From: Stappia stellulata DSM 5886
Lineage (GTDB): Bacteria; Pseudomonadota; Alphaproteobacteria; Rhizobiales; Stappiaceae
Direction of reading: 5' to 3'
DNA: 64,000 bases
Assembly (NCBI RefSeq): GCF_000423705.1
Contig: NZ_AUIM01000011.1
Span: forward strand, 248,001-312,000
The first letter of the stretch is position 1. Each line of letters begins with the position of its first letter. The translations under genes and the position numbers were made by a program. Under the pieces are notes generated by a model. That model had not been told where the DNA came from. It did not search any database and saw only the letters and a program-made list of their open reading frames with translations. Positions 38,022 to 53,854 of this stretch are shown here, one piece after another.

Positions 38022-38930
38022 ATGAAAATCTCAGCACCGAGCGATGCCGCCGGCGGGTGCGCGCATGAGGATGCGCAGCCAAGTCGTCGCCGGCTCATCC
38101 TGCGGCACCTGTTGCGTGCCTTCGGCACCGGCCCGGCGCTGGTGGCGCTGGTCATTCTCTTGCTTGTCGTGCTGATGGCCCTGTTTGCGCCGCTGCTCGC
38201 CACGGCGGATCCCATCGCGATCGCCCCCGCCGAACGGCTTTCGGGAAGTTCGGCAAACCACCCGCTGGGCACCGATGCCTACGGCCGCGACATCTACTCC
38301 CGGGTTCTCTACGGGGCGCGTGTCTCGCTGATCGTCGGGGCCGGCGCGGCGCTCGTGAGCGTTGCGATCGGCCTGGTGATCGGGGTCCTTGCCGGTTACT
38401 TCCCCGCGGTCGATTCCGTCATCATGCGCACGATGGATGGCGTCATGGCGATCCCGTCGATCCTGCTCGCCATCGCGCTGATCTCCCTGACGGGCGCATC
38501 GCTCATGACGGTGATGGTGGCAATCACCATCCCCGAGATTCCCCGCGTGGTGCGACTGGTTCGCAGCGTCATCCTCAATGTGCGCTCGGAAGCCTATGTC
38601 GAGGCGGCGGTGACGCTTGGAAGCCCGGTTCGCCGCATCCTGATGCGGCATATGGTGCCAAACACGATCGCGCCGCTAATCGTCCAGGGCACGTTCGTCT
38701 TTGCGTCGGCAATACTGACCGAGGCGACGCTCAGCTTTCTCGGCGCCGGCCTGCCGACAGAAATCCCTTCCTGGGGCAACATCATGTCGGAGGGGCGGTC
38801 GTATTTTCAACTTTTCCCCGGCCTGGTGCTCTGGCCCGGTATCGCGCTCGCGCTGACGCTGCTCAGCGTCAACGTCCTCGGCGACGTCTTGCGTGACACA
38901 CTTGATCCGAAGATGGCGAAACGTACATGA
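38022..38930 (+). CDS. Peptide-type ABC transporter permease, DppC type
   Basis: 302-residue permease with an N-terminal cytosolic segment (to about residue 35) and six helices. It contains the DppC motif HPLGTDAYGRDIYSRVLYGA, the coupling loop SEAYVEAAVTLGSPVRRILM and ILTEATLSFLGAGL. I start at ATG 38022; an in-frame TTG overlapping the previous stop (38007) is less likely. Its stop overlaps the ATPase gene by four bases (38927-38930). Confidence 0.92.
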   Translation: MKISAPSDAAGGCAHEDAQPSRRRLILRHLLRAFGTGPALVALVILLLVVLMALFAPLLATADPIAIAPAERLSGSSANHPLGTDAYGRDIYSRVLYGARVSLIVGAGAALVSVAIGLVIGVLAGYFPAVDSVIMRTMDGVMAIPSILLAIALISLTGASLMTVMVAITIPEIPRVVRLVRSVILNVRSEAYVEAAVTLGSPVRRILMRHMVPNTIAPLIVQGTFVFASAILTEATLSFLGAGLPTEIPSWGNIMSEGRSYFQLFPGLVLWPGIALALTLLSVNVLGDVLRDTLDPKMAKRT

Positions 38931-40582
38931 CCGAACCGGCTGCTCCCCATCGAAATCCCGTTATCCGGGTCCGCGACCTGTCGGTCGGTCTCGTTCACGG
39001 AAGCCACCGCCCCGTGGTCGACAGGGTCGGGTTCGAGATCGCCCCCGGCGAAACGGTTTGCGTGGTCGGTGAATCCGGTTCGGGCAAATCTGTCACCGCC
39101 TTCTCCATCATGGGCCTCTTGCAGACCAACGCCCTGCGCCCCACCGGGGGCGAGATACTGCTGGGTGACGAGGATCTGCTGCGGGCCGCTCCGGAACGGT
39201 TGCGGCATCTCCGCTCGACGCGGATGTCGATGGTCTTCCAGGAACCCATGACCGCGCTCAATCCGGTCGAGAAGGTCGGACGCCAGATCGAGGAAGTGCT
39301 TCTGCTGCATTCGCGGATGGGGCCGGCGGAACGCCGCCAACGAACCCTTGCGATGCTCGAAACGGTTCATCTTCCGGATCCCGAGCGGATCTACGAGTCT
39401 TTTCCGCATCAACTCTCCGGCGGGCAGCGCCAGCGTGTGGTGATTTGCATAGCGCTCATTCTCGAGCCCGACCTGCTGATCGCGGACGAGCCCACCACGG
39501 CGCTCGACGTGACCACCCAGCAACAAATCCTGACCCTGATTCGCGAAATGCAGGAACGGCAGAACACCGCCGTCCTGTTCATCACGCATGACATGGGGGT
39601 CGTTGCCGACATTGCCGATCGCGTCGTCGTGATGAAGGACGGGCGTGTCGTCGAGGTCTCGGACAAGGAGAGGATCCTGCGGGCGCCAACCCACGACTAC
39701 ACGCGCATGCTGATATCGTCCGTGCCGAGCCTTGTGCCCGAACTCCGGGAACCGCTTCGCACCGAACCGGTCCTGACCGTCGAAGGGCTTCACAAGACCT
39801 TCCGCAAGAAACGGTTTCTTCGCCCGGCCTCGGAAGTCCGCGCCGTGCAGGATGTCAGCCTGACGCTCCAGCGAAAGGAGATCCTGGGTGTGGTCGGGCA
39901 ATCGGGTTCGGGCAAGTCCACGGTCGCGCGCTGTATCGTCGGGCTGGAGGAGCCGAGTGCCGGTGAAATCGTGATCTGCGGCGAGCGGCTCGACCGGGCC
40001 GGCACAGCCGCCAGAAGGCAGATGAGGCGGCGGATCCAGATGGTGTTTCAGGACCCGTACAGATCGCTGAACCCGCGGGTCAGGATCGGCCGTTCGATGA
40101 TCGAGGGGCCGACCAATTTTGGCGTCGCGACAGAGGCTGCCATGGAGCGGGCCGGCGAACTGATGGCGCTGGTGGGCCTGCCGACGTCTGCGCTCGACCG
40201 GTATCCGCATCAGTTTTCGGGTGGACAACGCCAGCGCATTTGCGTTGCCCGTGCCTTGATGCTGGAGCCGGCCGTGCTGGTCGCCGACGAGGCGGTTTCG
40301 GCGCTCGACGTGTCGGTCCAGGAGCAGGTTCTGGAACTCTTGGACGAGATCCGGGAGGAGACCGGCGTCGGCATCCTGTTCATTACCCACGACCTGCGGG
40401 TCGCGGCCCGGATCTGCGATTCCATCTTCGTGATGAACCATGGCCGCGTTGTCGAGCATGGCCCGGCGGAACACGTGCTGGCGCGGCCCGAACAGGCCTA
40501 CACGCAAAAGCTCTTCGAGGCGGCGCCCGGACGACACTGGGACTTTCGCAATTTCCGTCCTATTGAAGGAAACTCTGCATGA
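38927..40582 (+). CDS. Fused DppD-DppF-type ABC transporter ATPase
   Basis: 551 residues with two complete nucleotide-binding domains in one chain. Domain 1 has [31 protein letters not shown] and [14 protein letters not shown]. Domain 2 (from about residue 285) has [31 protein letters not shown] and [14 protein letters not shown]. Each domain ends with an oligopeptide-type C-terminal segment. It powers the System B importer. It overlaps both neighbours by four bases. Confidence 0.93.
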
Positions 40583-42090
40583 CGCAACACTTCGACCTGC
40601 TGATCCGCAACGGCACGATTGTCGATGGAACCGGCGCCGCGCGTTACGAAGGCGACGTTGCTGTGTGCGGCGAACGTGTGTCGCGGATCGGGGAACTCAG
40701 CGATTGCACGGCCACCCGGGAGATCGATGCGAAAGGCCTGATCGTGGCGCCGGGGTTCATCGATGTCCACACCCATGACGACCGCATGCTGTTGGCGGAG
40801 GGAGACATGGTGCCCAAGGTCAGCCAGGGCGTGACCACGGTTGTGGCTGGAAACTGCGGCATATCGCTGGCGCCCATGCCCGTCCCGGTCTCCCGCCCCG
40901 TCCTTCCGCCCCTCGATCTTCTGGACGCTTCCGGTGAATGGTATTGCTACCGTAGTTTCGCCGAGTATCTCGCCGCGCTCGGAGAGACCCCGGCTGCGGT
41001 GAACGCTGCGGCATACGTCGGACACACAACGCTGCGGGCCATCGTCATGGATGACCTGGACCGGCCCGCGAGTGCCGCGGAAGTGGCGCGAATGCAGGAA
41101 ATGGTTGCCGAGGCGATGGAGGCGGGTGCGATCGGCGTCTCGACCGGTCTGGCCTATCCGCCGGCCAGGGCCGCCACCACCGAGGAGGTGATCGAGGTCT
41201 GTCGTCCCATGGTGCCGCATGACGGACTTCACGCCACGCACATGCGCGACGAGGGCGAGGCGACAATGGCTTCGCTCGACGAGACCTTCGCCATCGGACG
41301 TGCGCTTGGGGTGCAGACGCTGATTTCGCACCACAAGCTTGCCGGCGCGGCGGCTCATGGTCAGTCGGTCGCCACCCTGCGCGTCATCGCAGACGAGATG
41401 ATCCGGCAGAAGGTCAGTCTCGACTGCTATCCCTACACGGCCTCATCGACCATCCTGACACTGGAACACGCGGAAAGTTCCGGGCGCACTCTGATCACCT
41501 GGTCGCGCAAGCGCCCCGAGTTCTCCGGGCGCGACCTGATGGACGTCATGTCCGAACTTGGGTGCTCGATGGCCGAAGCGGTGGCGCAGCTGCAACCGGC
41601 TGGCGCGGTCTACTTCCGGATGCACGAGGATGATGTCAGCCGGATCCTGTCCTTCGATCCGACGATGATCGGCTCGGACGGCCTTCCGCACGACGAGTTT
41701 CCGCATCCCAGGCTCTGGGGCACTTTCCCGCGTGTTCTCGGCCACTACAGCCGGGATCGGGGCCTGTTCACCCTGGAAACCGCCGTTCACAAGATGACCG
41801 GACTGACGGCGGCCGAAATCGGTTTCGTCGACCGCGGCGTTCTGCGCGCAGGTGCATTCGCCGACATCACGCTCTTCGATGCTGGGCTGATCCGCGATCA
41901 GGCGACGTTCGAGGAGCCGACGCGGCGCGCCGAGGGAATCGGCGCTGTGCTGGTGAACGGTGTTTCCGTGTGGGAGGGCGACGCTCCGACAGGCGCACGG
42001 CCCGGGCGTGTCCTGCATCGCCAGCGCTCCCCGATGCAAGCGCCCGGCGCGAACACCGGCTCGCGGGCCGCGGTGTCGACCGCAGGGTAA
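40579..42090 (+). CDS. N-acyl-D-amino-acid deacylase (D-aminoacylase)
   Basis: Amidohydrolase, 503 residues, that releases D-amino acids from N-acyl-D-amino acids. Metal ligands H64 and H66 are in GFIDVHTHDD. The D-aminoacylase Cys93 is in VVAGNCGISLAP. Further ligands fit ATHMRDEGEATMASLDE and LISHHKLAG, and the catalytic Asp fits MIGSDGLPHDEFPHPRLWG. The C-terminal ~25 residues are a divergent tail. It is the sixth gene of the TetR-ThDP-Dpp run and overlaps the ATPase gene by four bases; it has no signal peptide, so it acts after import. Confidence 0.92.
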   Translation: MTQHFDLLIRNGTIVDGTGAARYEGDVAVCGERVSRIGELSDCTATREIDAKGLIVAPGFIDVHTHDDRMLLAEGDMVPKVSQGVTTVVAGNCGISLAPMPVPVSRPVLPPLDLLDASGEWYCYRSFAEYLAALGETPAAVNAAAYVGHTTLRAIVMDDLDRPASAAEVARMQEMVAEAMEAGAIGVSTGLAYPPARAATTEEVIEVCRPMVPHDGLHATHMRDEGEATMASLDETFAIGRALGVQTLISHHKLAGAAAHGQSVATLRVIADEMIRQKVSLDCYPYTASSTILTLEHAESSGRTLITWSRKRPEFSGRDLMDVMSELGCSMAEAVAQLQPAGAVYFRMHEDDVSRILSFDPTMIGSDGLPHDEFPHPRLWGTFPRVLGHYSRDRGLFTLETAVHKMTGLTAAEIGFVDRGVLRAGAFADITLFDAGLIRDQATFEEPTRRAEGIGAVLVNGVSVWEGDAPTGARPGRVLHRQRSPMQAPGANTGSRAAVSTAG

Positions 42091-42097
42091 TCCGCCG

Positions 42098-43336
42098 ATG
42101 CCTGATGTTATCGTTTTGGGCGCAGGGATGGTCGGCGTCAGCACCGCGCTCGCCCTGCAGGAACGCGGCAGCGAGGTCGTCATGCTCGACCGTGGCGACC
42201 CGGTTGCCGCGAGCAGCTACGGAAACGCGGGGATCATCCAGGTCGAAGCCGCCGAACCCTATGCCATGCCCCGCTCGTTCCGGGAGCTTGCAGCGATCGC
42301 GCTCGGCCGCAGCAATGCCGTCGTATGGCACGCGGCTGCGCTTCCCGGCGCACTGCGGCCCCTTTGGGCCTATTTTCGCAATTCCGCGCCTGCGCGCCTT
42401 GAACGGATCGCGCGAACCTACGCGACGCTGACATCGCGTGCGACGTCGGATCACGCGCCCTGGATCGAGGCGGCGCGGGCGGACCGGTGGATCCGCCGTG
42501 ACGGTTTCCGGCATGTCTTTCGCGATCCGCGCGACTTGTCGACGGCAGTCATGCGTGCCGAGCGGGTGACCAGAGACCACGGTGTCCGCTTCGAGGTGCT
42601 GGACGGTCCGGCACTGGCACGCAAGGAGCCGTCTCTGCGCAGGCCTTTGGCGGGCGCGCTCCATTGGCTCGACCCCTGGACATGCCGTGACCCAGGCGCA
42701 CTGGTGAAGGCCTACACCGACCTGTTCCGGTCCCGCGGAGGACGTGTCTTGCACGGAAACGCGATGACGCTGACCAGGCGTGCGGGCGGATGGCACGCCA
42801 GAACAAATGAGGCAACATGGGTCGGCGCGCCGCATGCGGTCATTGCGATGGGCATGCAGTCTGCGGCGCTTTGCCGGCGGTTCGGCCTTCGCGTTCCCCT
42901 CTTCGCCAAGCGTGGCTACCACTGTCACTTCGAAACCCGGAGCGGACCCGACCTGCCGCTTGTCGATGTGGCGAGCAGCTCCGTTCTCGCGCCGATGGCA
43001 GGAGGGTTGCGCATCCTGACCGGTGCCGAGATCGCCCGGGAGGGCGCCAAGGCGCGGCATGTGCAACTGGAGCGCGCGCGAAACGACGCATCGGAACTGT
43101 TTGACCTCGGCGATCCCGTCGACCCGGTGCCGTGGCTCGGCACACGACCCTGCATGCCCGACATGTTGCCGGTTCTGGGAGGCGTGCCGGACCAGCCAGG
43201 TCTTTGGGCGCATTTTGGTCACGGTCATCAAGGGTTCACCCTGGGGCCGACCACCGCCGCCATCCTGGCGGAGGAGATGACCGGTGGCGCGCCGGTGCCA
43301 TCGGCGCTGACCCCGGCCCGTCTCGCTCGGCAGTAA
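42098..43336 (+). CDS. FAD-dependent D-amino-acid dehydrogenase/oxidase (DadA-like)
   Basis: 412-residue flavoprotein of the DAO family. The FAD-binding N-terminus is VIVLGAGMVGVSTALALQER, ending in an acidic residue (MLDRGD). The C-terminal motifs WLGTRPCMPDMLPVLG and GHGHQGFTLGPTTA are DadA-like. Start ATG 42098 is 7 bases after the deacylase stop. It would oxidatively deaminate the D-amino acid produced by the deacylase, giving a 2-oxo acid for the ThDP enzyme (inference). Electron acceptor unknown. Confidence 0.88.
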   Translation: MPDVIVLGAGMVGVSTALALQERGSEVVMLDRGDPVAASSYGNAGIIQVEAAEPYAMPRSFRELAAIALGRSNAVVWHAAALPGALRPLWAYFRNSAPARLERIARTYATLTSRATSDHAPWIEAARADRWIRRDGFRHVFRDPRDLSTAVMRAERVTRDHGVRFEVLDGPALARKEPSLRRPLAGALHWLDPWTCRDPGALVKAYTDLFRSRGGRVLHGNAMTLTRRAGGWHARTNEATWVGAPHAVIAMGMQSAALCRRFGLRVPLFAKRGYHCHFETRSGPDLPLVDVASSSVLAPMAGGLRILTGAEIAREGAKARHVQLERARNDASELFDLGDPVDPVPWLGTRPCMPDMLPVLGGVPDQPGLWAHFGHGHQGFTLGPTTAAILAEEMTGGAPVPSALTPARLARQ

Positions 43337-43738
43337 AGCGGCAGGCCCCCCTGATTGGTCCGTTTTTCCCGGCATCCGCAAACCGACCGACGGATTGAAG
43401 ACGGGTCGGTGCTCACTTCGGCGCAGCGTCCGGGCGGGCCCGCTGCCTGGGCTCACTCAGGGAATTGCGTGTTTCGATCCCGCGCTCGCCAGCGCGCGGT
43501 GCGGACGGCCCTGCCCTTCATCGCCGTTGTTACCGCCGCCGCAGGCGACCCGTTGACGGCGGAACGCGTCTTGCCGTTGGACCGCGTTTCCGGATCCCGA
43601 CGCCTTGGTCCTTCGGACCTGCAGCTCCGTTCTTCATCAAAACAGCCCTCAGCTTCTATAAGGGCACGCATATTTTTGATCGATATGCATTGACTCTTTC
43701 AATCCGATCATTAACGATCACAACCAAGGGGAGGCAGG
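43337..43738. other. Intergenic region before System C with repeated CGATCA boxes
   Basis: 402 bp with no gene I can support. Near its right end three copies of one hexamer occur in 45 bp: TTGATCG (inverted, 43677-43683), CGATCA (43705-43710) and CGATCA (43715-43720). These are a candidate operator for the adjacent DeoR regulator. A TTGACT at 43690 and TATAAG at 43657 are weak promoter elements. A strong AGGGGAGG ribosome site is at 43727-43734. Confidence 0.5.
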
Positions 43739-44503
43739 ATGCGCCATCGATTTCCACAAAAGCGGCAACGCCAGATGATCGACGTCATTGTCGAGCGCAA
43801 GCGCGTGAGCACCGCTGACCTTTCCGCCCAGCTGGGCATCTCGCTTCCGACCGTACGCCGCGATCTTGCCGTCCTGGAGCAGGCGGGTCTCGTTACCAGA
43901 ACGCATGGCGGGGTGGTCGCGCGCGGGGCCGGGGAAGACGGCACCGAGCCGCTTTTTCTGGAGAAGGTTCGGCAAAACCAGAACCTGAAGCAGCGTATCG
44001 GCCAGGCGGCCGCTGCCCTGCTGGCGGACGGACAGGCGGCGCTGCTGGATTCCGGAACGACGGCCATGGCAACCGCGCGCGCCCTTGCCGGTCGGCGCGT
44101 CACAATCGTCACGATGGACCTCAAGGTGGCGGAAGCGGCCTCCGTCGGCGCCACCGAAGTCCATATCGTCGGCGGTCGGGTTCGCAACGGCTATTTCAGC
44201 CTCGTCGGCAACTGGGCCAAGGACGCGCTGGCGAGCATTCAGGCGGATATCTGTTTTCTCGCCGCCGACGCCCTCGATCACAACGGCATCACCACCGCCA
44301 CGTTCGAGGAGGCCGAGGCAAAGCGGATCGCCATGTCGCGGGCGAAACGCATCGTCGCGATTTCCGATCACAGCAAATTCGGCAAGCGGGCGTTCGCGGA
44401 GGTCTGCGGGCTCGACGCCATCGACGAACTCGTCACCGACAGGGGCGGCGAGGCTCTCGTTGCCCCCTATCGGGCGTTGATACCGGTCATCAGGCTCGTC
44501 TGA
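43739..44503 (+). CDS. DeoR-family sugar-operon regulator (SgcR-like position)
   Basis: 254 residues. The N-terminal DeoR helix-turn-helix is ERKRVSTADLSAQLGISLPT, then VRRDLAVLEQAGLVTRTHGG. The C-terminal sugar-phosphate sensor has LLDSGTTAMATARAL and SDHSKFGKRAF, the DeoRC signature that binds a phosphosugar by an isomerase-like fold. It is the first gene of System C, 36 bases before the BtpA/SgcQ-like gene, and likely represses the system until the phosphorylated substrate accumulates. Confidence 0.9.
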   Translation: MRHRFPQKRQRQMIDVIVERKRVSTADLSAQLGISLPTVRRDLAVLEQAGLVTRTHGGVVARGAGEDGTEPLFLEKVRQNQNLKQRIGQAAAALLADGQAALLDSGTTAMATARALAGRRVTIVTMDLKVAEAASVGATEVHIVGGRVRNGYFSLVGNWAKDALASIQADICFLAADALDHNGITTATFEEAEAKRIAMSRAKRIVAISDHSKFGKRAFAEVCGLDAIDELVTDRGGEALVAPYRALIPVIRLV

Positions 44504-44539
44504 CGGGCGGGGACCGACTACACCAAGGAAAGATACGGA

Positions 44540-45349
44540 ATGTCAAAGTTCAAGCAGCTCTTCGGCGACAAGAAGCCCATCGTCTCGATGGTGCATCTGA
44601 TGCCGATGCCGGGGTCTCCGCTCTACCGGGCGGATGCAGGCATTGACGGCATCGTCGCTGCAGCGCGCAAGGATCTCCTTGCCCTGCAGGATGCCGACGT
44701 CGATGCGGTGATGTTCGGCAACGAGAACGACCGCCCTTATGAGCTGAAGGTTGATACCGCCTCCACCGCAGCCATGGCCTATGTCATCGGCCAGTTGCGG
44801 GACGAGATCAAGAAGCCTTTCGGTGTCAATGTTTTGTGGGACCCGATGAGCACCGTTGCATTGGCGGCGGCGACAGGGGCCTCTTTCGTTCGCGAGATTT
44901 TTACCGGAACCTACGCCTCCGACATGGGGCCGTGGACACCGAACGCCGGCGAGGCGCTGCGCTATCGCAATCGTCTGGGACGCGACGATCTGGTGATGCT
45001 CTACAACGTCTCTGCCGAGTTCGCCGACTCCATGGACAGGCGTCCGCTCGCAGACCGGGCGCGCTCCGCCGTGTTTTCGTCGATTCCCGACGCCGTGCTG
45101 GTTTCCGGCGCCATCACGGGCGAGGCGGCGGAAATGAATGACCTCGAGACCGTCAAGGCGAAACTGCCCGACACCCCGGTTCTGGCCAACACGGGTGTGC
45201 GCCACAACACCGTGGCCGACATCCTCAAGATCGCGGACGGCTGCATCGTCGGCTCGTCGCTCAAGGTCGACGGGAACACATGGAACCCCGTCGATCCGGA
45301 GCGCGCCAGGGACTTCATGCAGATCGTCAAGGCCGCTCGCGGCGGCTGA
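44540..45349 (+). CDS. BtpA/SgcQ-family TIM-barrel protein
   Basis: 269 residues of the BtpA family (COG0434). It contains PIVSMVHLMPMPGSPLY, DAVMFGNENDRPY and the C-terminal phosphate-loop-like DGCIVGSSLKVDGNTWNPVD. Cyanobacterial BtpA affects photosystem I, while E. coli SgcQ sits in a cryptic sugar operon; the enzymatic activity was not known to me. No photosynthesis gene is nearby, so the sugar role applies here. The phosphate-binding loop suggests action on a phosphorylated intermediate made by the FGGY kinase. Confidence 0.85.
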   Translation: MSKFKQLFGDKKPIVSMVHLMPMPGSPLYRADAGIDGIVAAARKDLLALQDADVDAVMFGNENDRPYELKVDTASTAAMAYVIGQLRDEIKKPFGVNVLWDPMSTVALAAATGASFVREIFTGTYASDMGPWTPNAGEALRYRNRLGRDDLVMLYNVSAEFADSMDRRPLADRARSAVFSSIPDAVLVSGAITGEAAEMNDLETVKAKLPDTPVLANTGVRHNTVADILKIADGCIVGSSLKVDGNTWNPVDPERARDFMQIVKAARGG

Positions 45350-45373
45350 TCATCGGGACGGGGGAGGAAGATC

Positions 45374-46357
45374 ATGGACGCAAGACAGGACACCACAGGA
45401 TCTCACCTGAAGAATCTGGGCGTTTTGACGTTGCTGGTTTTCGTGACGCTCGCTGTTGTCAGCCCGGCTTTTCTCTCGGCGTCGAACCTCAAGTCCATGG
45501 GCTTTCAGTTTCCCGAATTCGGGCTGCTGTCTCTTGCCGTGCTGCCGACGATGATCACCGGCGGCATCGACCTCTCGGTCGTTGCCGTTGCCAATCTGGC
45601 CTCCATCGTCGCGGCCGTGACCATGAAGGCCGGGCCGGAGGTGGCGTGGCTTGCCATTCCCGCCGGCCTCGCGGTCGGCGTTGTCTGCGGCGCCTTCAAC
45701 GGATTTCTGGTCGCCTATTTGCGGCTGCCTCCGATCCTGGCAACGCTCGGCAGCATGCAGTTGTTTGCCGGCATCGGCATCATCATCACGCGCGGACCGG
45801 CCATCACCGGCCTGCCCGACTGGTACACAGCTTTCGGCAACTGGACGATCGGGGGCATGCTTCCGCTTCCGCTCGTCCTCTTTGCCCTTGTCGCGTCGGG
45901 TCTTGCCTTTCTTCTGCGCCGAACGCCGGTGGGTCTGCGTCTGCGCCTGTTCGGCGCCAACCCGGTGGCGGCCGGCTTCGCCGGCGTGCCCGGGAAGAAG
46001 CTGATCGTTCAGACCTATGCGATCGCCGGCTTCATTGCGGCGCTCGCCGGTCTAGTGGTTCTGGCCCGGGTTAATTCGGCCAATGCCGACTATGGCAGCT
46101 CCTATCTGCTGCTCGTCATTCTCATCAATATTCTTGCCGGCGTCAGGCCGGCCGGTGGTTTCGGCACTGTGACCGGCATCGTCCTGGCAGTGATCTGCCT
46201 GCAATTCATCTCCAGCGGGCTCAACATTCTCTCCTTCAGCGCCTTCTCCCGCGATCTGGTCTTCGGCGGCCTGCTGATCGCCGTCATGTCCTATCGCGCG
46301 GCGTTCGCGCCCTTCGACGTGAAGGCGTTTCTCAAACGAAAGGCTCATCCCTCATGA
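45374..46357 (+). CDS. Ribose-type ABC transporter permease 1 (System C)
   Basis: 327-residue RbsC/BPD_transp_2 permease with about nine hydrophobic segments. It has MITGGIDLSVVAVANLASIV (the GGIDLS motif), and GLRLRLFGANPVAAGFAGV is the coupling region. The C-terminus NILAGVRPAGGFGTVTG is typical. It is separated from the other transporter genes by the M42 and kinase genes, an unusual placement; the second permease is at the end of the operon. Its stop overlaps the M42 start by four bases. Confidence 0.9.
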   Translation: MDARQDTTGSHLKNLGVLTLLVFVTLAVVSPAFLSASNLKSMGFQFPEFGLLSLAVLPTMITGGIDLSVVAVANLASIVAAVTMKAGPEVAWLAIPAGLAVGVVCGAFNGFLVAYLRLPPILATLGSMQLFAGIGIIITRGPAITGLPDWYTAFGNWTIGGMLPLPLVLFALVASGLAFLLRRTPVGLRLRLFGANPVAAGFAGVPGKKLIVQTYAIAGFIAALAGLVVLARVNSANADYGSSYLLLVILINILAGVRPAGGFGTVTGIVLAVICLQFISSGLNILSFSAFSRDLVFGGLLIAVMSYRAAFAPFDVKAFLKRKAHPS

Positions 46358-47454
46358 AAGAGCGCCTCCGCTCCCTGCTTAAAACCCTGATGCTGACGCC
46401 GGGTCTGTCCGGACATGAAGACCGCGTCCGCCGTCGTATCGAGACGGAGCTCTCCGATCTGCCGCTTTCGGTTCGCACCGATCGTCTCGGCAACCTCATT
46501 GCCACTTTGAAGGGCGACGAGGGCGCTCCCTCGGTCATGCTCTTCGCGCATACCGACCAGTTGGGCTTCATGGTGCGCAAGATCGAGGACAACGGCCTCG
46601 TTCGGATCGAGCGCCTGGGCGGCATTCCCGAAAAGGCGCTGGCGGCGCAGGCGGTGTTGTTTTGCATAGGCGAAGGCCGCGACGTGCAGGGCGTGATCGC
46701 CAACAAGAGCCATCATGCAACGCCGCCGGAGGAAAAATACAAGGTCACGCCTTATCAGGACGTCTTCATCGATGTGGGTGCGGAAGACGCCGCCGGCGTC
46801 AAGGCGCTGGGCATCGAGATCGGGACGCCGGTGGTCTATGATCCGCGCGTCATCGAACTCAACGAAAACCGCCTCATCGGCACGTCGATCGATGACCGCG
46901 CCGGCTGTGCAGTGGTCGTTGAGGTCGCCCGTGCGCTGGCAGAGGACGGCCCGCGCCCGACGGTACATTTTGTCTTTGCCGTTCTGGAGGAGTTCAATCT
47001 CCAGGGCGCGATGGTTGCAGCGCGCGCGATCAACCCGGACATCGCCATCCAGCTCGACCTGGCGCTCAATGCCGACACGCCCGACATGACGCAGCGCGGC
47101 GAAGTCGCGCTGGGGAACGGTCCGGCGATGAGCCTATATTCGTTCCACGGGCGCGGCACGCTGAACGGCACGATCCCGCATCCGGCATTGCCGAAGCTGT
47201 TCTCCGATACCGCCGCATCGGAAGGGATCAATCTTCAGCGCACGGCGCATACCGGCGCGCTCACGGATTCCTCTTACGTCCAGCTCGTCAATGACGGCGT
47301 GGCCTGCATCGATATGTGCTTCCCCTGCCGCTACACGCACACCTGTCTGGAAATGTGCGACCTGCGGGATCTGGAGGCACTCACGAAACTGTTGATCGCC
47401 GCGATCCGGCGGGTCGATGCCGATTTCAGCCTGAACCGGGATCATTACACCTGA
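46354..47454 (+). CDS. M42-family metallopeptidase-like protein (SgcX/FrvX-like)
   Basis: 366 residues. M42 dimetal ligands are in place: H66 in AHTDQLGFMV, D180 or D181 in TSIDDRAGC, E212/E213 in VLEEFNLQGA, an Asp in LDLALNADTPD and His in RYTHTCLEMCD. The usual HxDE and EEVGxxGA motifs read HTDQ and EEFNLQGA. M42 members are aminopeptidases, and some were called endoglucanases. SgcX and FrvX in E. coli are encoded in sugar operons, as here. Deacylation or hydrolysis of a sugar conjugate is a reasonable guess, not shown. Confidence 0.82.
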   Translation: MKERLRSLLKTLMLTPGLSGHEDRVRRRIETELSDLPLSVRTDRLGNLIATLKGDEGAPSVMLFAHTDQLGFMVRKIEDNGLVRIERLGGIPEKALAAQAVLFCIGEGRDVQGVIANKSHHATPPEEKYKVTPYQDVFIDVGAEDAAGVKALGIEIGTPVVYDPRVIELNENRLIGTSIDDRAGCAVVVEVARALAEDGPRPTVHFVFAVLEEFNLQGAMVAARAINPDIAIQLDLALNADTPDMTQRGEVALGNGPAMSLYSFHGRGTLNGTIPHPALPKLFSDTAASEGINLQRTAHTGALTDSSYVQLVNDGVACIDMCFPCRYTHTCLEMCDLRDLEALTKLLIAAIRRVDADFSLNRDHYT

Positions 47455-48968
47455 TGGATTGCTATCTCGGCATCGACATCGGAACTTTCGAGACCAAGGG
47501 CGTGCTGGCCGACGGCCGCGGACGCATCCTGGCATCGGCGAAGCGACGGCACGATCTGATCGTGCCGCAGCCCGGCTGGGCCGAACATGACGCCGAGAAT
47601 GACTGGTGGGGCGAATTCTGCGCCGTCAGCAAGGAGCTTGTCGCCACGTCCGGCGTCGCTGCCGGCGACATCAAGGCAGTGGCGGCAAGCGGCATCGGTC
47701 CATGCATGCTTCCCGTCGACAAGGGCGGCAAGCCGCTGATGAATGCGGTGCTCTACGGCGTTGACACGCGCGCCTCGGAGGAAATCGAGGAGCTGACCGC
47801 CGAGATCGGCGAGGAGACCCTTTTCGCCGAATGCGGCAATGCCCTCACCTCGCAGTCGGTTGGCCCGAAGATCCTGTGGCTGAAGAAAAACCGGCCCGAC
47901 GTCTACGCCCGAACGCACAAGGTATTGAACTCCTCGTCCTTCCTTGTGCACCGGCTGACGGACCGTTTCGTCATCGATCACTATTCCGCGGCGTCCTCGA
48001 CCCCGCTCTACGACATCCGCACCAATCAATGGAGCGAGCGCTACGCCTTGCGCATCATCGCGCCCGAACGGCTGCCTGACCTTTTGTGGAGCACCGAGAT
48101 CGCGGGCCAAGTCACGCAACAGGCAGCACGGGAAACCGGGCTTGCAGCGGGCACGCCAGTCACGGCCGGAACGATCGATGCCGCATCGGAAGCCATCAGC
48201 GTCGGTGTGCTGGGGCGCGGCGAAATGATGATGATGTACGGCTCCAGCATGTTCATTATCCTGGTGACCGACCATCGTGTCGCGGACGGGCGGCTGTGGT
48301 ATGCGCCCTGGCTCTTCAAGGGTCAGCATGCTTGCATGTCCGGGACCTCCACCAGCGGCACGCTGACGCGCTGGTTCCAGGAGCAGTTCGCCCGCGAGCT
48401 CGAGGCCGACGATGCCCTGAGGCTGCTCGCCGAAGAAGCCCGGGCATCGCCGGTCGGCGCGAACGGGATTGTCGTGCTGCCCTATTTTTCCGGCGAACGC
48501 ACCCCGATCCACGATCCGCATGCGCGCGGTGTCATCTTCGGTCTCGATCTCACCCATACACGTGCGGACATCTATCGCGGGTTTCTCGAAGGCATTGCCT
48601 ACGGCGTGACCTCGGTGATCGAGACCTACCAGACCGCCGGGGCATCGGTGGACCGCATCGCCGCCGTCGGAGGCGGCACGAAGAATGCGGTCTGGTCGCA
48701 AGCGATTTCCGATGCGAGCGGCAAGACCCAGGACGTCGCCGCCCACACGCTTGGCGCGGCCTTCGGGAATGCCTTTCTCGCCGCCATTGCCGTCGGCGCC
48801 GCCGAACGCGGCGACATCCGGCGCTGGAACCCGGTGGAGCGGAGCATCGTCGCGGACGCGCGCAACCATGCCGTCCATCGCGCGCGCTATCGAACATTCA
48901 AGGAATTGTACGCCCGCAACAGCGATCTCATGAGGGGGACGGGGCAACGGGCGTTCGATGAAGCCTGA
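47454..48968 (+). CDS. FGGY-family carbohydrate kinase
   Basis: 504 residues, the usual FGGY length. N-terminal phosphate loop GIDIGTFETKGVLAD, then AEHDAENDWWGEF and YGVDTRASEEIEEL. The C-terminal ATP site holds GVTSVIETYQTAG and IAAVGGGTKNAVWSQAISDA. Most similar in style to xylulokinase-like or unassigned sugar kinases. Start ATG 47454 overlaps the M42 stop (TGATG); an upstream frame to 47316 lies inside M42. It probably traps the sugar imported by System C. Confidence 0.88.
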   Translation: MDCYLGIDIGTFETKGVLADGRGRILASAKRRHDLIVPQPGWAEHDAENDWWGEFCAVSKELVATSGVAAGDIKAVAASGIGPCMLPVDKGGKPLMNAVLYGVDTRASEEIEELTAEIGEETLFAECGNALTSQSVGPKILWLKKNRPDVYARTHKVLNSSSFLVHRLTDRFVIDHYSAASSTPLYDIRTNQWSERYALRIIAPERLPDLLWSTEIAGQVTQQAARETGLAAGTPVTAGTIDAASEAISVGVLGRGEMMMMYGSSMFIILVTDHRVADGRLWYAPWLFKGQHACMSGTSTSGTLTRWFQEQFARELEADDALRLLAEEARASPVGANGIVVLPYFSGERTPIHDPHARGVIFGLDLTHTRADIYRGFLEGIAYGVTSVIETYQTAGASVDRIAAVGGGTKNAVWSQAISDASGKTQDVAAHTLGAAFGNAFLAAIAVGAAERGDIRRWNPVERSIVADARNHAVHRARYRTFKELYARNSDLMRGTGQRAFDEA

Positions 48969-49022
48969 CAGGCGGCCATTCAGGTCGTCGAGGCGCGATT
49001 GATGAGTTAGAGGAGGAGTCTC

Positions 49023-50021
49023 ATGGTGTCGAAATTAGGGAAACTCACCGCCGGCGTGGCGCTTGGCGCCGCGCTGTTCCTGGGAGCGGGTGCCATCACC
49101 CAGGCTCAGGATGCCAAACACACCATCGTCACGGTGGTGAAACTGTCGGGAATTGCCTGGTTCAACCGCATGGCGGATGGGGTCGAGCAATATGCCGCCG
49201 ACACGGGCCACGACGCCACCCAGGTCGGCCCGGCCTCGGCCGATGCGGCGCTCCAGGTGCAGATGATCGAGGATCTGATCGCCCGGAAGGTCGACGCCAT
49301 CACCGTCGTCCCGAACTCCCCGGAAGCGCTGGAGCCTGTGCTCGGCAAGGCCCTCGATGCAGGGATCAAGGTCATCGGTCACGAGGCGTCGAGCCTCGAC
49401 AACATCACTTATGACGTGGAAGCCTTCGACAATGCGGCCTACGGCCGTCACCTCATGGAAGCCCTGGCGCAGGCCATGGGCGGGGAAGGCGAATATGCCG
49501 TCTTCGTCGGCCATCTGACTGCCAAGACCCACAATGAATGGGTCGACGCTGCGATTGCCTACCAGAAAGAAAAATACCCCGACATGACGCTCGTCACCGA
49601 CAAGCTGGAAAGCAACGAGCAGCAGCAGACCGCCTACCAGAAGACCAAGGAACTTCTGCGCACCTATCCGAACCTGAAGGGCATTCAGGGCTCGGCGGGC
49701 GAGGACGTCGTGGGTGCGGCCCTTGCCGCCGAAGAAGCGGGCCTCGACGGGAAGATCAAGATTGTCGGCACCAGCCTCGTCTCCGTCGCCGGACCGTATC
49801 TGGAGACCGGTGCCATCGAGATGATCTCGTTCTGGGATCCCGCCAAGGCAGGCATTGCCATGAACAAGGTCGCTTCCATGGCCATCGAGGGCAAGGACGT
49901 GACCGACGGCATGGATCTCGGCGTCGAGGGCTACAACGCGGTCAAGCTCGACGGCAAGGTGCTCTACGGTCAGGCTTGGGTCGATGTGACCACGCAAAAC
50001 ATGGGCGATTACGACTTTTAG
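49023..50021 (+). CDS. Ribose-type ABC transporter substrate-binding protein (System C)
   Basis: 332-residue periplasmic protein of the RbsB type (Peripla_BP_4). Signal peptide about residues 1-29 (LTAGVALGAALFLGAGAITQA). The motifs KHTIVTVVKLSGIAWFNRM, GPASADAALQVQMIEDLIAR and AITVVPNSPEALEPVLGKA are family-like and recall autoinducer-2/rhamnose-type binding proteins. Strong GAGGAGG ribosome site upstream. Ligand unknown; likely a free or substituted pentose, hexose or polyol. Confidence 0.9.
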   Translation: MVSKLGKLTAGVALGAALFLGAGAITQAQDAKHTIVTVVKLSGIAWFNRMADGVEQYAADTGHDATQVGPASADAALQVQMIEDLIARKVDAITVVPNSPEALEPVLGKALDAGIKVIGHEASSLDNITYDVEAFDNAAYGRHLMEALAQAMGGEGEYAVFVGHLTAKTHNEWVDAAIAYQKEKYPDMTLVTDKLESNEQQQTAYQKTKELLRTYPNLKGIQGSAGEDVVGAALAAEEAGLDGKIKIVGTSLVSVAGPYLETGAIEMISFWDPAKAGIAMNKVASMAIEGKDVTDGMDLGVEGYNAVKLDGKVLYGQAWVDVTTQNMGDYDF

Positions 50022-50082
50022 GGCCCGGGTCTCGTCGCCATGACCGGAAGCGGAAGACATCCCGCGTCGGCTTGCCGTCACG

Positions 50083-50150
50083 GGTCCGGGGCCACCGGAC
50101 CGCAACCCGTTTTCCGCTCCCCCTACCGCCGGGCCGACCTGCCCGGCGGT
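50083..50150 (+). repeat. Two perfect hairpins between binding-protein and ATPase genes
   Basis: Hairpin 1: GGTCCGG (50083-50089) / CCGGACC (50095-50101), 5-nt loop. Hairpin 2: ACCGCCGGGC (50125-50134) / GCCCGGCGGT (50141-50150), 6-nt loop. They lie in the 155-bp gap after the binding-protein gene and have no T run. Such intercistronic structures usually raise the binding-protein level by partial termination or by protecting the upstream mRNA (as known downstream of malE). Confidence 0.55.
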
Positions 50151-50176
50151 CTTGCCTGAACACAAGAGATCTGCGC

Positions 50177-51691
50177 ATGAACGACGAAGCGAGCGGCAGC
50201 ACGCCCATCCTGCAGATGCAAGATATTCGCAAGGCCTATGGATCCGTGCGTGTGCTGGAGGACGTCAGTCTCGAACTTGGGGCAGGCGAGGTGCGCTGTC
50301 TGGCCGGCGAAAACGGATCCGGCAAATCAACGCTGATCAAGGTTCTATCCGGCGTTGTGAGGGCGGATGCAGGCCAGGTACGGCTGCACGGCCGCCGTTT
50401 GAGCAGCGATCCGATGGCTGCCATTGCGGCCGGACTGTCGGTCATCTATCAGGACTTTTCCCTTTTTCCCAATCTGTCTGTTTGGGAAAACATCGGATTC
50501 CTGCGCTCCGTGACCTGTGAAGACGTGTTTCACCGACGTGGCGCGCGCCGTCGGCTTGCGGTCGACACACTCCGCCGCATGCAGGTGGACATCGATCCGG
50601 ACACACCGGTGGAAATGCTGCCTGTCGCGTCGAAGCAACTGGTCGCCATCGCCCGCGCCCTGGCCAATCAGGCCCGCATTATCGTCATGGACGAACCGAC
50701 GACCGCCCTCACCCGGAGCGAGGTCGCGCATCTTCTCGATATCGTCGAAACCCTGAAAAAGGACGGCGTTTCGTTTCTCTTCGTCAGCCACAAGATCGAG
50801 GAAGTCTTCGCGGTTTGTGACACGGTTACGGTTCTGCGCGACGGCTCCGTGGTGATGGAAGGTCCGATCGGGGCATTCGATGCCGGGCGTCTTGTGGAGG
50901 CCATGACCGGACGCTCCGTCGACAGCCAGCGCCTGCCGCGCGAGCAATCCCCGCCGCAGCCTCCCTTCCTCGAGGTCTCCGGTCTCGGCCGGCGCGGAGA
51001 GTTCGTTGACGTGAACCTCGCCTTGCGACCGGGCGAAATCGTCTCGGTGGTCGGACTGCTCGGCTCGGGTCGCACGGAGCTTGCGCAAACCCTGTTCGGC
51101 TACATGAAACCGGACGCGGGCCGCATCGAGATCGACGGCAAGCCGGTCGCATTCGGCGACCAGACCAGCGCCATCGCCCACGGAATTGCCTATGTGCCGG
51201 AAGACCGATTGACGGAGGGACTGTTTCTCAGTCAGTCGATTGCCGACAATATAACCGTTTCCAGCCTCGGCAAATCGACCTCCTTCGGCATTCTCGGCGC
51301 CGCCGCACTGCTGCAGCGCGCGCGTGCGGCGGTGCAGAACCTGCGGATCAAGACGCCCGACGTCACGCCCGCGGTCGCAACGCTTTCGGGTGGCAACCAG
51401 CAACGCGTCGTCCTTGCACGCTGGATGGAGCACGATCCCAAACTGCTCATCCTCAACGGACCGACCGTCGGAGTTGATGTCGGCTCGAAGCGGGACATTC
51501 ATGAGTTGCTGGTTTCGCTCAGTCGCAGCGGCACCTCGGTCATGGTCGTAACGGACGACATTCCCGAAGCGATTGCATTGTCGGACCGCATTCTGGTGAT
51601 GGTGCGCGGTCGCATCACCGCGAGCTTCGACGCCGCCGCCGTGGATGAAGATACGCTTTACAACGAAGTCATCAGGGAGGACCGGACATGA
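50177..51691 (+). CDS. Ribose-type ABC transporter ATPase (two domains, System C)
   Basis: 504 residues, RbsA type with tandem ATPase domains. Domain 1 has Walker A GENGSGKST and Walker B IIVMDEPTTALT. Domain 2 has the family GLLGSGRTE in place of Walker A, signature LSGGNQQRVVLARWM, and LLILNGPTVGVDVGSK where Walker B plus catalytic Glu (LDEPT) is usual. So domain 2 likely binds but hydrolyses poorly. Start ATG 50177; the open frame back to 49538 overlaps the binding-protein gene. The stop overlaps permease 2. Confidence 0.92.
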   Translation: MNDEASGSTPILQMQDIRKAYGSVRVLEDVSLELGAGEVRCLAGENGSGKSTLIKVLSGVVRADAGQVRLHGRRLSSDPMAAIAAGLSVIYQDFSLFPNLSVWENIGFLRSVTCEDVFHRRGARRRLAVDTLRRMQVDIDPDTPVEMLPVASKQLVAIARALANQARIIVMDEPTTALTRSEVAHLLDIVETLKKDGVSFLFVSHKIEEVFAVCDTVTVLRDGSVVMEGPIGAFDAGRLVEAMTGRSVDSQRLPREQSPPQPPFLEVSGLGRRGEFVDVNLALRPGEIVSVVGLLGSGRTELAQTLFGYMKPDAGRIEIDGKPVAFGDQTSAIAHGIAYVPEDRLTEGLFLSQSIADNITVSSLGKSTSFGILGAAALLQRARAAVQNLRIKTPDVTPAVATLSGGNQQRVVLARWMEHDPKLLILNGPTVGVDVGSKRDIHELLVSLSRSGTSVMVVTDDIPEAIALSDRILVMVRGRITASFDAAAVDEDTLYNEVIREDRT

Positions 51692-52704
51692 GCCCGCTTG
51701 CCCGCATCGTTGCCACACCGCAGGGCATCGTGTTCCTCGTCGCAGTGCTTTTCGCGCTGGTGCTCGGGTTTCTCAATCCGGCCTTCTTCACCCCCTCCAC
51801 CCTGCTCGATCTTGCGCGCAACGGCCTCGTTACCGGCATTTTCGCACTCAGCGTGATGTTGGTGCTGGCGTCGGGCGGCATCGATGTGTCGCACACAGCG
51901 ATCGGCGCCTTCGCCATGTACGCAACGATGAAGATCGTTCTCGGCATCGACATGGACCTGCCGATCATCGCCTATTTTGCTGTTGCGGCCATCATCGGCG
52001 CCGGTCTCGGCCTGATCAACGGCGTGTTGATCGGCGGGCTCGGGCTCAACACGCTGATCGTCACGCTTGGAACGCTGTCCTTCTTTCGGGGGGCCCTACT
52101 CACCTTTCTCGGCACGACCTACATCACGTCGGTGCCGCGCGAGGTGATCGATTTCTCGCGCACCATCCTGATCCGCATCGAGAACGGTGTCGGCCAGATG
52201 GTGTCGCTTCCGGCCTCTTTCCTCGTTTTGGTCGCGATCACGATCGCGCTCTCGATCGTCATGAACTTCACCATGTTCGGGCGAAAGGTCTATGCAATCG
52301 GGGGGTCGGAAGAGGCGGCCCAGCGCATCGGCATTCGCATCAAGCGGGTCAAGGTGCTGATCTATGTGATCGCCGGGGCCATAGCCGGGCTTGCCGGCAT
52401 GACGCATGTCACGCTCTCGCGCATGGCGAACCCGTTCGATCTCGTCGGCATGGAGCTCAATGTCATCGCCGCGGTCGTGCTGGGCGGGGCCCGTATCACC
52501 GGGGGGCACGGCACGGTGCTCGGGACCCTTCTCGGCGTTTTCGTGATTACCATGATCAACACGACGCTTCTGATGGCTGGCGTCCCGTCCTATTGGCAGA
52601 AATTCGTCATCGGCTGCCTGATCATCCTTGGCACGGGCTTGCCCATTGTTTTCGACCGTCTTGCAAAGTATCGCCGGCGCATGGCCCGCCCCTTGAATGC
52701 CTGA
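51688..52704 (+). CDS. Ribose-type ABC transporter permease 2 (System C)
   Basis: 338-residue RbsC-like permease with the membrane motif LASGGIDVSHTAIGAFAMYA; GRKVYAIGGSEEAAQRIGIR is the coupling region, and VLGGARITGGHGTVLGTLLG the C-terminal motif. It overlaps the ATPase gene by four bases (ATGA). With the permease at 45374 it makes a heteromeric pair, as in LsrCD-type importers, rather than the RbsC homodimer. It closes System C. Confidence 0.91.
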   Translation: MSPLARIVATPQGIVFLVAVLFALVLGFLNPAFFTPSTLLDLARNGLVTGIFALSVMLVLASGGIDVSHTAIGAFAMYATMKIVLGIDMDLPIIAYFAVAAIIGAGLGLINGVLIGGLGLNTLIVTLGTLSFFRGALLTFLGTTYITSVPREVIDFSRTILIRIENGVGQMVSLPASFLVLVAITIALSIVMNFTMFGRKVYAIGGSEEAAQRIGIRIKRVKVLIYVIAGAIAGLAGMTHVTLSRMANPFDLVGMELNVIAAVVLGGARITGGHGTVLGTLLGVFVITMINTTLLMAGVPSYWQKFVIGCLIILGTGLPIVFDRLAKYRRRMARPLNA

Positions 52705-53017
52705 TCGCGATTTCGGGGCATTTCTCCCACCAAGGATCCGGCAGCGTCGCCGGTTCCGGGAGCGAGCGCATGACGCCTCATGGCGACCGCGCCGGGCGGC
52801 TTCCGCGTCGTCCGGCCTGCGTCGGAGGCCGAATCCGGCCGCGCCCTCAGGATTAGGCGGGCGAGCAGCAGGCTGGTGCGGACGACGGACATTCGACGCG
52901 TCACGAAGCGCCCTGCCTTTGAGAAGCGATTTGCCGGACCTGTCGCGTTGCACGATGGCGTCAATATGCGGATGCTGACGACTGCGCCGGAATGCCGCAG
53001 CGTGAACGGGGATTGGA
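52705..53017. other. Non-coding stretch after System C
   Basis: 313 bp with no gene I can support. Two short forward frames (52697-52978, 52780-53037) are compositionally poor, Arg-rich and lack ribosome sites. A small hairpin CCGGC/GCCGG near 52738-52753 could end the System C transcript but lacks a T run. Confidence 0.45.
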
Positions 53018-53854
53018 ATGAATCGGTCGGAAAATGACAGGCGCGACAAGGTTCCGATCTCCGGGGGGCCGGTTCAAGTTTATCTGCTGCGCGATGCCGA
53101 TCCCGCCTTCGATGCGCTGGAGGAGCGCTGGCGCGGGACGCTGTCGCCGGCGGAGCGTGACCGGGCCGGCCGCTATCGCTTTCCCCGCCATGCGCGGCAG
53201 TCCAGGCTCGCCCATGCCCTGAAACGCCATGCACTCTCATGGCATCTTCCTAGGATCGCGCCGGCGGACTGGCGGTTCGAGTTGACCGATCACGGCAAGC
53301 CATATGTGGCGGGTGCCGCCGATGCGCCGGTGTTCAACCTGTCGCACAGCGACGGCATGATCGCGCTTGCCGTGGCGCCGCCCAACGGAGCCGGCCCGTG
53401 TCTCGGCGTCGATGTCGAGGCAATGAACCGCACGGTGTCGGAAGGGGTGGCGGAGCGGTTTTTCGCGGCCCGCGAGGTGGCGGACCTGCGGGCGTTGCCG
53501 AACCACGCCCGCGAAGAACGCTTCTTCGCGCTTTGGGCGCTGAAGGAGAGCTATATTAAGGCGGTGGGGCTCGGGCTTGGCATCCCGCTCGACAGTTTCG
53601 CCTTTCGCTTCACGGGCGCGGATCGGCGGTCGCTGTCGTTTCGCGCCGACCGCGAGGAACGGCCCGAAGACTGGGCGTTCCGCCAGACGGTCGTGCCCCG
53701 ACCCGGAGGCGGCGGGCACAGTCTCGCGCTTGCTTGCGGGATGGACGATCAGGTGTCGCGGATGGAAGTCGCCGTCAATGAAATCACGCCCGACGGAGAG
53801 GCAAGGCCGCAGGCCGTGCGATGGTTGCGCACAAGCGCTGCGACGGGAGCATGA
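53018..53854 (+). CDS. 4'-phosphopantetheinyl transferase, Sfp type
   Basis: 278 residues. Transfers the phosphopantetheine arm of CoA to carrier proteins. Signature motifs: TDHGKPYV, FNLSHSDGMIALAV, LGVDVEAMNR (Mg-binding Asp and Glu) and FFALWALKESYIKAVGLGL. The length is of the Sfp/AcpT-II class, not AcpS. No NRPS, PKS or siderophore gene is in the window, so its carrier protein is unknown; stand-alone copies often serve a distant cluster or a reductase. It is convergent with the peroxiredoxin gene. Confidence 0.9.
   Translation: MNRSENDRRDKVPISGGPVQVYLLRDADPAFDALEERWRGTLSPAERDRAGRYRFPRHARQSRLAHALKRHALSWHLPRIAPADWRFELTDHGKPYVAGAADAPVFNLSHSDGMIALAVAPPNGAGPCLGVDVEAMNRTVSEGVAERFFAAREVADLRALPNHAREERFFALWALKESYIKAVGLGLGIPLDSFAFRFTGADRRSLSFRADREERPEDWAFRQTVVPRPGGGGHSLALACGMDDQVSRMEVAVNEITPDGEARPQAVRWLRTSAATGA

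Follow-up and report, generated by a model that had tools for sequence, protein, structure and literature searches.

An operon of eight genes at positions 43739-52704 of a 64,000-nucleotide stretch of the Stappia stellulata DSM 5886 genome (contig NZ_AUIM01000011.1, positions 248,001 to 312,000; the whole stretch is referred to below as the window) is supported, at the level of gene content, as a counterpart of the Escherichia coli sgc operon in which the phosphotransferase system (PTS) is replaced by an ATP-binding cassette (ABC) importer and an FGGY kinase. On balance, the operon probably serves the uptake and degradation of a small sugar with an amide-linked, probably aminoacyl, group and would represent an ABC-plus-kinase form of the sgc pathway. 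The sgc operon sits in the best-studied bacterium and shows strong induction in certain conditions, yet its substrate is not known in print according to the available text of a 2026 study (PMC13343008). The ABC-type operon thus appears to be a variant of a known but itself unexplained kind, and the original prediction, which had been made from the letters of the window, was right on structure. No description of the ABC-type operon was found in the open PMC literature, as judged by titles and abstract starts. The ABC form offers what the PTS form cannot, namely a soluble binding protein for ligand screening and a soluble kinase that could supply BtpA and the M42 enzyme, and one ligand would yield a first function for the wide BtpA family (PF03437).

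Gene content of the operon

The eight genes overlap by 1-4 bases at three junctions (permease/M42, M42/kinase and ATPase/permease) and are otherwise separated by gaps of 36, 24, 54 and 155 bases. Matches to Pfam families were far over cut-off for all eight, NCBIfam results were consistent, and the coordinates bear out the order of families, all forward and mostly overlapping or closely spaced, that had been proposed (Table 1). Profile searches of the genome returned a single BtpA match and a single M42 match, both inside the operon. Scans for an operon promoter and terminator gave hits at chance level only.

Table 1. Features of the operon and of the adjoining site, in window coordinates
Feature	Position	Strand	Evidence
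DeoR/GlpR-type repressor, SgcR-like	43739..44503	+	First gene; Pfam DeoRC 6.1e-43, HTH_DeoR 1.7e-15
BtpA/SgcQ family protein	44540..45349	+	Pfam BtpA 1.9e-75; TIGR00259 255.6 bits (cut-off 153.4); predicted (beta/alpha)8 barrel
ABC permease A	45374..46357	+	Pfam BPD_transp_2 2.1e-35; best model AraH, under AraH cut-off
M42 metallo-aminopeptidase family, SgcX clade	46354..47454	+	Pfam Peptidase_M42 1.6e-76
FGGY carbohydrate kinase, xylulokinase-like	47454..48968	+	Pfam FGGY_N 2.9e-50, FGGY_C 6e-34
Periplasmic sugar-binding protein, AauA kin	49023..50021	+	Pfam Peripla_BP_4 6.3e-64
RbsA/AraG-type double ATPase	50177..51691	+	Pfam ABC_tran 4.4e-52, two stretches; AraG 437 bits, under cut-off
ABC permease B	51688..52704	+	Pfam BPD_transp_2 8.4e-38; best model YjfF, under YjfF cut-off
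DhaK-DhaL site of close relatives, empty here	52705..53017	.	tblastn with DhaK/DhaL of locus L113, best E 0.20

Relation to the E. coli sgc operon

The sgc operon of E. coli K-12 (sgcXBCQAER) had been described in the original prediction as grouping a SgcQ-type BtpA, an M42 protein of the SgcX type and a DeoR-type regulator with a PTS, and comparison confirmed this. These three components are shared with the window at 30-46% identity, the BtpA being 46% identical to SgcQ over 267 amino acids, the M42 protein 35% identical to SgcX and the DeoR protein 30% identical to SgcR over 231 amino acids. The K-12 operon differs in having PTS IIABC and SgcE, while the window has the ABC importer and the FGGY kinase; PTS IIA, IIB and IIC were absent from the eight genes, and a comparison of SgcE with the eight proteins gave no match at E 0.001 (the rest of the genome was not searched for SgcE).

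When 41 M42 rows were placed in a maximum-likelihood tree, which carried a long-branch warning, SgcX and the operon M42 proteins were placed in one clade with support of 100/99, and YpdE, FrvX and 10 of 13 other M42 proteins of the order fell outside it. Three proteins that had been chosen as other M42s (L207, L209 and L210; loci are denoted by L numbers) placed inside the operon clade. A row was obtained from 13 of the 14 stretches of this kind, with none from L203. The E. coli frv and fry clusters, which include FrvX and YpdE, are partly alike in that an M42 gene adjoins a PTS, but their M42 proteins lie outside the SgcX clade and no BtpA was annotated in the stretches examined.

PTS-type and ABC-type loci

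SgcQ-like loci were compared in the order of genome G578, which holds the family of G578 (f91) and a second family (f95). Family f91 was taken as that of E. coli because the SgcQ of L246 is 97% identical to K-12 SgcQ. BtpA matches were present in 7 of 345 genomes of this order, in 29 of 188 in f91 and in 4 of 246 in f95. All eight SgcQ-like places in the f91 list (E <= 2.2e-98; L233 and L246-L252) were of the PTS type and, together with E. coli, had SgcX, SgcQ and a PTS in 9/9 cases and an FGGY kinase in none of the mapped stretches (0/9); no SgcE was called in L250, SgcB mostly fell below the length cut for open reading frames and the PTS genes in L233 were identified by eye. The four f95 loci (L240, L243, L244 and L245) each encoded a SgcQ-like BtpA (68-71%), a binding protein (57-62%), RbsA, two permeases and an FGGY kinase. 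M42 was not seen in any of these four loci, and an M29 metallo-aminopeptidase was present in all of them (Pfam 2.4e-55 for L240, the others being 75-77% identical to that of L240). In L245 the BtpA, the ATPase and one permease each seemed to be broken into two frames. L031 combined a BtpA 70% identical to SgcQ with a binding protein (57%), RbsA, two permeases, DeoR, M42 and FGGY.

In these loci the PTS is seen exchanged for an ABC importer plus FGGY kinase with an aminopeptidase retained, as judged from gene content. A PTS both imports and phosphorylates; loci that lack it have an ABC importer and an FGGY kinase instead. The proposal of a non-PTS counterpart was supported, with the M42 protein inside the SgcX clade and the kinase, absent from the mapped stretches of the PTS-type loci, found in 4/4 ABC-type loci of f95 and 17/17 alphaproteobacterial loci described below. 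The importer/kinase swap narrows the likely food of both systems. A third kind of partner was observed at L262, where a very distant BtpA (25% identical to SgcQ) lies amid apparent mannose-family PTS subunits, named by eye.

Co-occurrence of BtpA, M42 and FGGY genes

BtpA was found in 111 and M42 in 183 of 397 genomes of the order to which the window belongs. Both were present in at least 35 genomes and lay within 5 kb of each other in at least 18, own genome included, where random placement predicts 0.124 pairs (128 BtpA places at E <= 2e-50 with weaker rows dropped, 150 M42 places among the matches listed, and a single genome size of 4.5 Mb assumed). The proximity of BtpA and M42 is not chance. 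Across the whole phylum, BtpA was matched in 24 of 397 sampled genomes. In a separate set of 14 control genomes, five had matches, a cyanobacterium and an archaeon among them, and three of the five were over the cut-off.

Eighty stretches were examined, comprising the 60 best-scoring BtpA rows (own genome excluded), 19 hand-picked from the rest and L091, which continues L040. Nine show no BtpA, these being L091 and eight missed by the gene finder. An M42 protein at least 45% identical to that of the window was present in 16 of the 80, 15 of which were among the first 60, and the ribose-type importer accompanied it in three (L031, L040 and L047).

A second set of 80 named loci, labelled Alphaproteobacteria or wider groups containing them, leans towards the window's own BtpA because it consists of the best 80 of 498 GTDB relatives; presence was counted by tblastn at an identity of at least 45%. 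The two sets overlap (L040/L128, L054/L130, L057/L161, L058/L171 and L052/L184), which left duplicate rows in the M42 tree and residue alignments. M42 was present in 70 and FGGY in 67 of the named loci, and a tight BtpA-M42-FGGY block in 62; one of the ten loci with no M42 (L190) is at a contig end. The ribose-type importer was found in 17 loci from Nitratireductor, Aquamicrobium, Brucella grignonensis, Ochrobactrum, Aureimonas, Microvirga, Antarcticirhabdus, Aurantimonas, Mangrovicella, Rhizobium albus and a Rhizobiales isolate, all 17 of which had M42 and FGGY, while DhaK and DhaL were present in 14 and an aldo/keto reductase in four. At L116-L119 (Brucella grignonensis, Ochrobactrum and the Rhizobiales isolate), BtpA adjoins another FGGY sugar operon, as if serving two operons.

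In 40 of the 80 named loci one or more genes of another, different ABC importer were present; 39 of these loci had M42 and none had DhaK. This importer includes a 560-amino-acid product resembling a binding protein but with no Pfam match, and permeases of which the only one scanned was BPD_transp_1. These 40 loci also contained another aldo/keto reductase (30 loci), RbsD/FucU (28), a xylose-isomerase-like barrel (14), a PfkB kinase (10) and a 183-amino-acid protein with no Pfam family (9). No locus among the 80 held both importers at the 45% threshold. The BtpA-M42-FGGY trio is kept with either importer, so by gene content the conserved core is this trio and the importer is exchangeable. The original prediction had proposed a search for genomes joining BtpA and M42 to FGGY kinase and ABC genes, and had named rare co-occurrence with the ribose-type transporter as counting against it; the full set was found in 17 of the 80 loci. 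Its view of that importer as the centre of the module was not upheld, since half of the loci use another.

Proposed pathway

In the pathway that we favour, the binding protein and the two-permease importer would take in the free compound and the FGGY kinase would phosphorylate it, both steps being carried out by the PTS in sgc. The M42 enzyme would then strip the amino-acid part, and BtpA, as a putative phosphate-binding TIM barrel, would split or isomerise the phosphorylated sugar. DhaK-DhaL, where present in relatives with the ribose-type importer, may phosphorylate a dihydroxyacetone-like product, and DeoR would be a local repressor responding to a phosphorylated intermediate.

The hydrolases of these loci point to an amide bond. 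Residues H66, D180, E212, E213, D235 and H329, which we take to form the two-metal site and the catalytic Glu, are all kept in the window protein, and the metal ligands were conserved in 77/77 rows except for H329 (76/77). A GRGTL stretch shared with SgcX was present in all 77 operon M42 rows and FN followed the catalytic Glu pair in 74. M42 and M29 have unrelated folds and are both aminopeptidase families, and the exchange of one for the other predicts the type of bond broken.

Distant BtpA loci of class R (21 of the 80 stretches) featured phosphotriesterase-like proteins (13), PfkB (12), GATase1_like (12), M20 hydrolases (10) and TenA-like proteins (5), and BtpA loci of class P (34 of the 80) had DeoR (27), short-chain dehydrogenases (24), another FGGY kinase (19) and HAD phosphatases (9); the phosphotriesterase, GATase1_like, TenA, M20, PfkB, HAD and short-chain dehydrogenase groups were named from one scanned representative each. 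Different amide-hydrolase families recur beside BtpA and a kinase, which suggests that an amide bond needs breaking. Recurring layouts were an ABC importer with phosphotriesterase-like, GATase1_like, PfkB, M20 and at times TenA genes (L071:8358-16095 and similar), and a polyol-like operon with no M42, in which BtpA is joined by an FGGY kinase, a HAD phosphatase, a short-chain dehydrogenase and another ABC importer (L049, L063 and similar).

Expression data from E. coli were also counted in favour of the pathway. In the available text of the 2026 study, sgcABCEQX formed an expression module with an induction of 16-25 fold on slow substrates that contain nitrogen (PMC13343008). The same text offers pentitol-related metabolism as a hypothesis for sgc (PMC13343008).

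Several observations weigh against this pathway. The induction of sgc may reflect nitrogen in general instead of a specific substrate, and the same text reports that sgc mutants (delta-sgcC and delta-sgcX in the methods) were not impaired in growth on any of 190 carbon sources (PMC13343008). M42 of the operon cluster occurred in only one class P locus (L031), which means that the amide cannot be a feature of BtpA substrates in general and that the BtpA reaction is not tied to it. Nine other f91 BtpA loci of classes P or R (L253-L261) show no M42 or M29, and the BtpA of L116-L119 lies in an adjacent operon on the opposite strand. The window lacks DhaK-DhaL, as do 3 of the 17 relatives with the ribose-type importer. 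The binding pocket, which resembles that of the D-ribulose-binding protein AauA (see below), suggests a small free ketose and little room for an aminoacyl group.

A broader proposal is put forward tentatively, namely that BtpA/SgcQ is the first of a new class of phosphosugar lyases or isomerases which, alongside an M42 or M29 aminopeptidase and either a sugar kinase or a PTS, may dismantle an aminoacyl-sugar, an unrecognised class of nutrient. If true, such a nutrient would be common to many Alphaproteobacteria, to E. coli and to another family of the E. coli order.

Candidate chemistry of BtpA

An AlphaFold2 model of BtpA built from 36 sequences was a TIM barrel (mean pLDDT 86.8, pTM 0.88). 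Its structural matches were TIM barrels, many of them phosphate-binding, with Z of 17.7-19.4 among the matches listed, including MJ1099, dihydropteroate synthases, a hexulose-6-phosphate synthase fusion, KDPG aldolases and TenI among others; Foldseek matches also included epimerases, and phosphoribosylanthranilate isomerase at rank 49. Many of these barrels are within 1 Z of each other, so the fold does not pick a reaction. No solved relative of BtpA (PF03437) was found by sequence at a significant E value (best 0.061 and 0.091), and seven of the eleven insignificant matches of the BtpA profile to the PDB were TrpA chains. Positions kept in at least 95% of 71 BtpA proteins of four kinds included H19, N61, N97, R118, R168, D184, G190, G219, G234 and K242, the last being present in 70 of the 71. 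No assigned reaction for BtpA was found in the open PMC literature. BtpA is likely a phosphosugar lyase or isomerase.

A more specific reaction, in which BtpA as a retro-aldolase converts a ketose phosphate to dihydroxyacetone for DhaK-DhaL while the M42 protein acts as a non-peptide hydrolase (on a lactone or ester, or in deacetylation), is possible if rather doubtful. DhaK-DhaL lies downstream of the second permease in the 14 loci that carry it, KDPG aldolase, MJ1099 and hexulose-phosphate synthase are among the structural matches, and K242 is nearly invariant. The dihydropteroate synthases and epimerases found alongside leave the choice of reaction undirected by fold, however, the replacement of M42 by M29 favours peptidase-type chemistry, and DhaK does not occur in any of the 40 loci where the other importer is found.

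The DhaK and DhaL proteins of L113 had no significant tblastn match to the window. The only DhaK match of the genome, with a DhaL-like gene, is located at L194:8796-10431 beside apparent TRAP transporter genes (by eye) and shares 53% identity with the operon-type DhaK of L113.

Importer ligand and kinase

The nearest solved kin of the binding protein were 5bra (E 1.4e-95), 9i1m (E 1.7e-65) and 3d02. Of these 9i1m is AauA, which binds D-ribulose with a KD of 1.98 uM (PMC12307932). Five of its six contacts (K37, W43, E118, H167, E196 and S223) are kept in the window as K40, W46, E121, H170 and E199, with G226 at the sixth. The KWEHE-G pattern was found in 14 of 16 extractable binding proteins, and L031 and L240 read KWEHD-A. 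A ketopentose-like core altered at its C5 end would be compatible with a modified sugar but does not show one. The Aau and Rbl D-ribulose importers share with the window a ribose-type ABC importer and a binding protein homologous to AauA, and Rbl also an FGGY kinase; they differ in the KpsF-like isomerase of Rbl and in the Ser to Gly change, and the available text names no peptidase or BtpA (PMC12307932).

Uptake of plain D-ribulose or another ketopentose to feed the pentose phosphate pathway, with BtpA and M42 as accessories (in metabolite repair or peptide turnover, for example), is unlikely, even though AauA, a D-ribulose binder (PMC12307932), was the nearest of the binding proteins found with a known ligand, most of its contacts are conserved and the kinase is xylulokinase-like. 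D-ribulose 5-phosphate would require no BtpA, M42 or DhaKL, and the residue matching AauA Ser223 is changed. M42 moreover stays with BtpA in nearly all loci with the different importer, and both are retained in the PTS-type sgc, where no ribose-type importer is present.

Two known systems were rejected. The kinase scored 324.2 bits against the TIGR01312 xylulokinase model, under its cut-off of 380.25, so a plain xylulose system was discarded. The autoinducer-2 system LsrACDB-LsrK has the same general layout of a two-permease RbsA-type importer with an FGGY kinase, but the window proteins were far under the model cut-offs (LsrB 113 bits against 384 and LsrK 175.6 against 528).

TrpF and HisA run the Amadori rearrangement forward, and BtpA might reverse it on a phosphorylated 1-amino-1-deoxyketose in a pathway of ketosamine degradation. 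The ketose-type binding site, the phosphoribosylanthranilate isomerase among the Foldseek matches and the link of sgc to nitrogenous substrates in the available text (PMC13343008) would agree with this. An Amadori compound would offer an M42 or M29 aminopeptidase no free amino end, the operon has no SIS-type deglycase and the BtpA profile matched PDB chains insignificantly (best E 0.091 for LBCATS-a and 0.13 for a TrpA chain), making this explanation quite improbable.

Distribution and genomic context

The operon is patchy in its distribution, as this genome has it and no BtpA was found in four others of its genus. The closest named contigs by BtpA were from Nitratireductor (93-94% identity). 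A Nitratireductor aquimarinus contig matched window positions 43677-52711 at 83% DNA identity, and the match stops at both ends of the operon where the flanks differ, as if the operon moved as one unit. It is highly improbable that M42 and BtpA are mere hitchhikers with no common pathway in a mobile sugar cassette, which the patchiness and differing flanks would allow, since the trio is conserved with two importers, SgcQ and SgcX are paired with a PTS and M29 takes the position of M42. Viral contigs scanned by pattern yielded no relative.

Immediately upstream of the operon on the same strand (38927-43336) are genes for a two-domain ABC ATPase and an amidohydrolase-like protein, both named by eye, followed by a DAO protein resembling D-amino-acid dehydrogenase; the N. 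aquimarinus match does not reach into these genes. Downstream, a 4'-phosphopantetheinyl transferase gene (53018-53854) follows the operon where relatives carry DhaK-DhaL.

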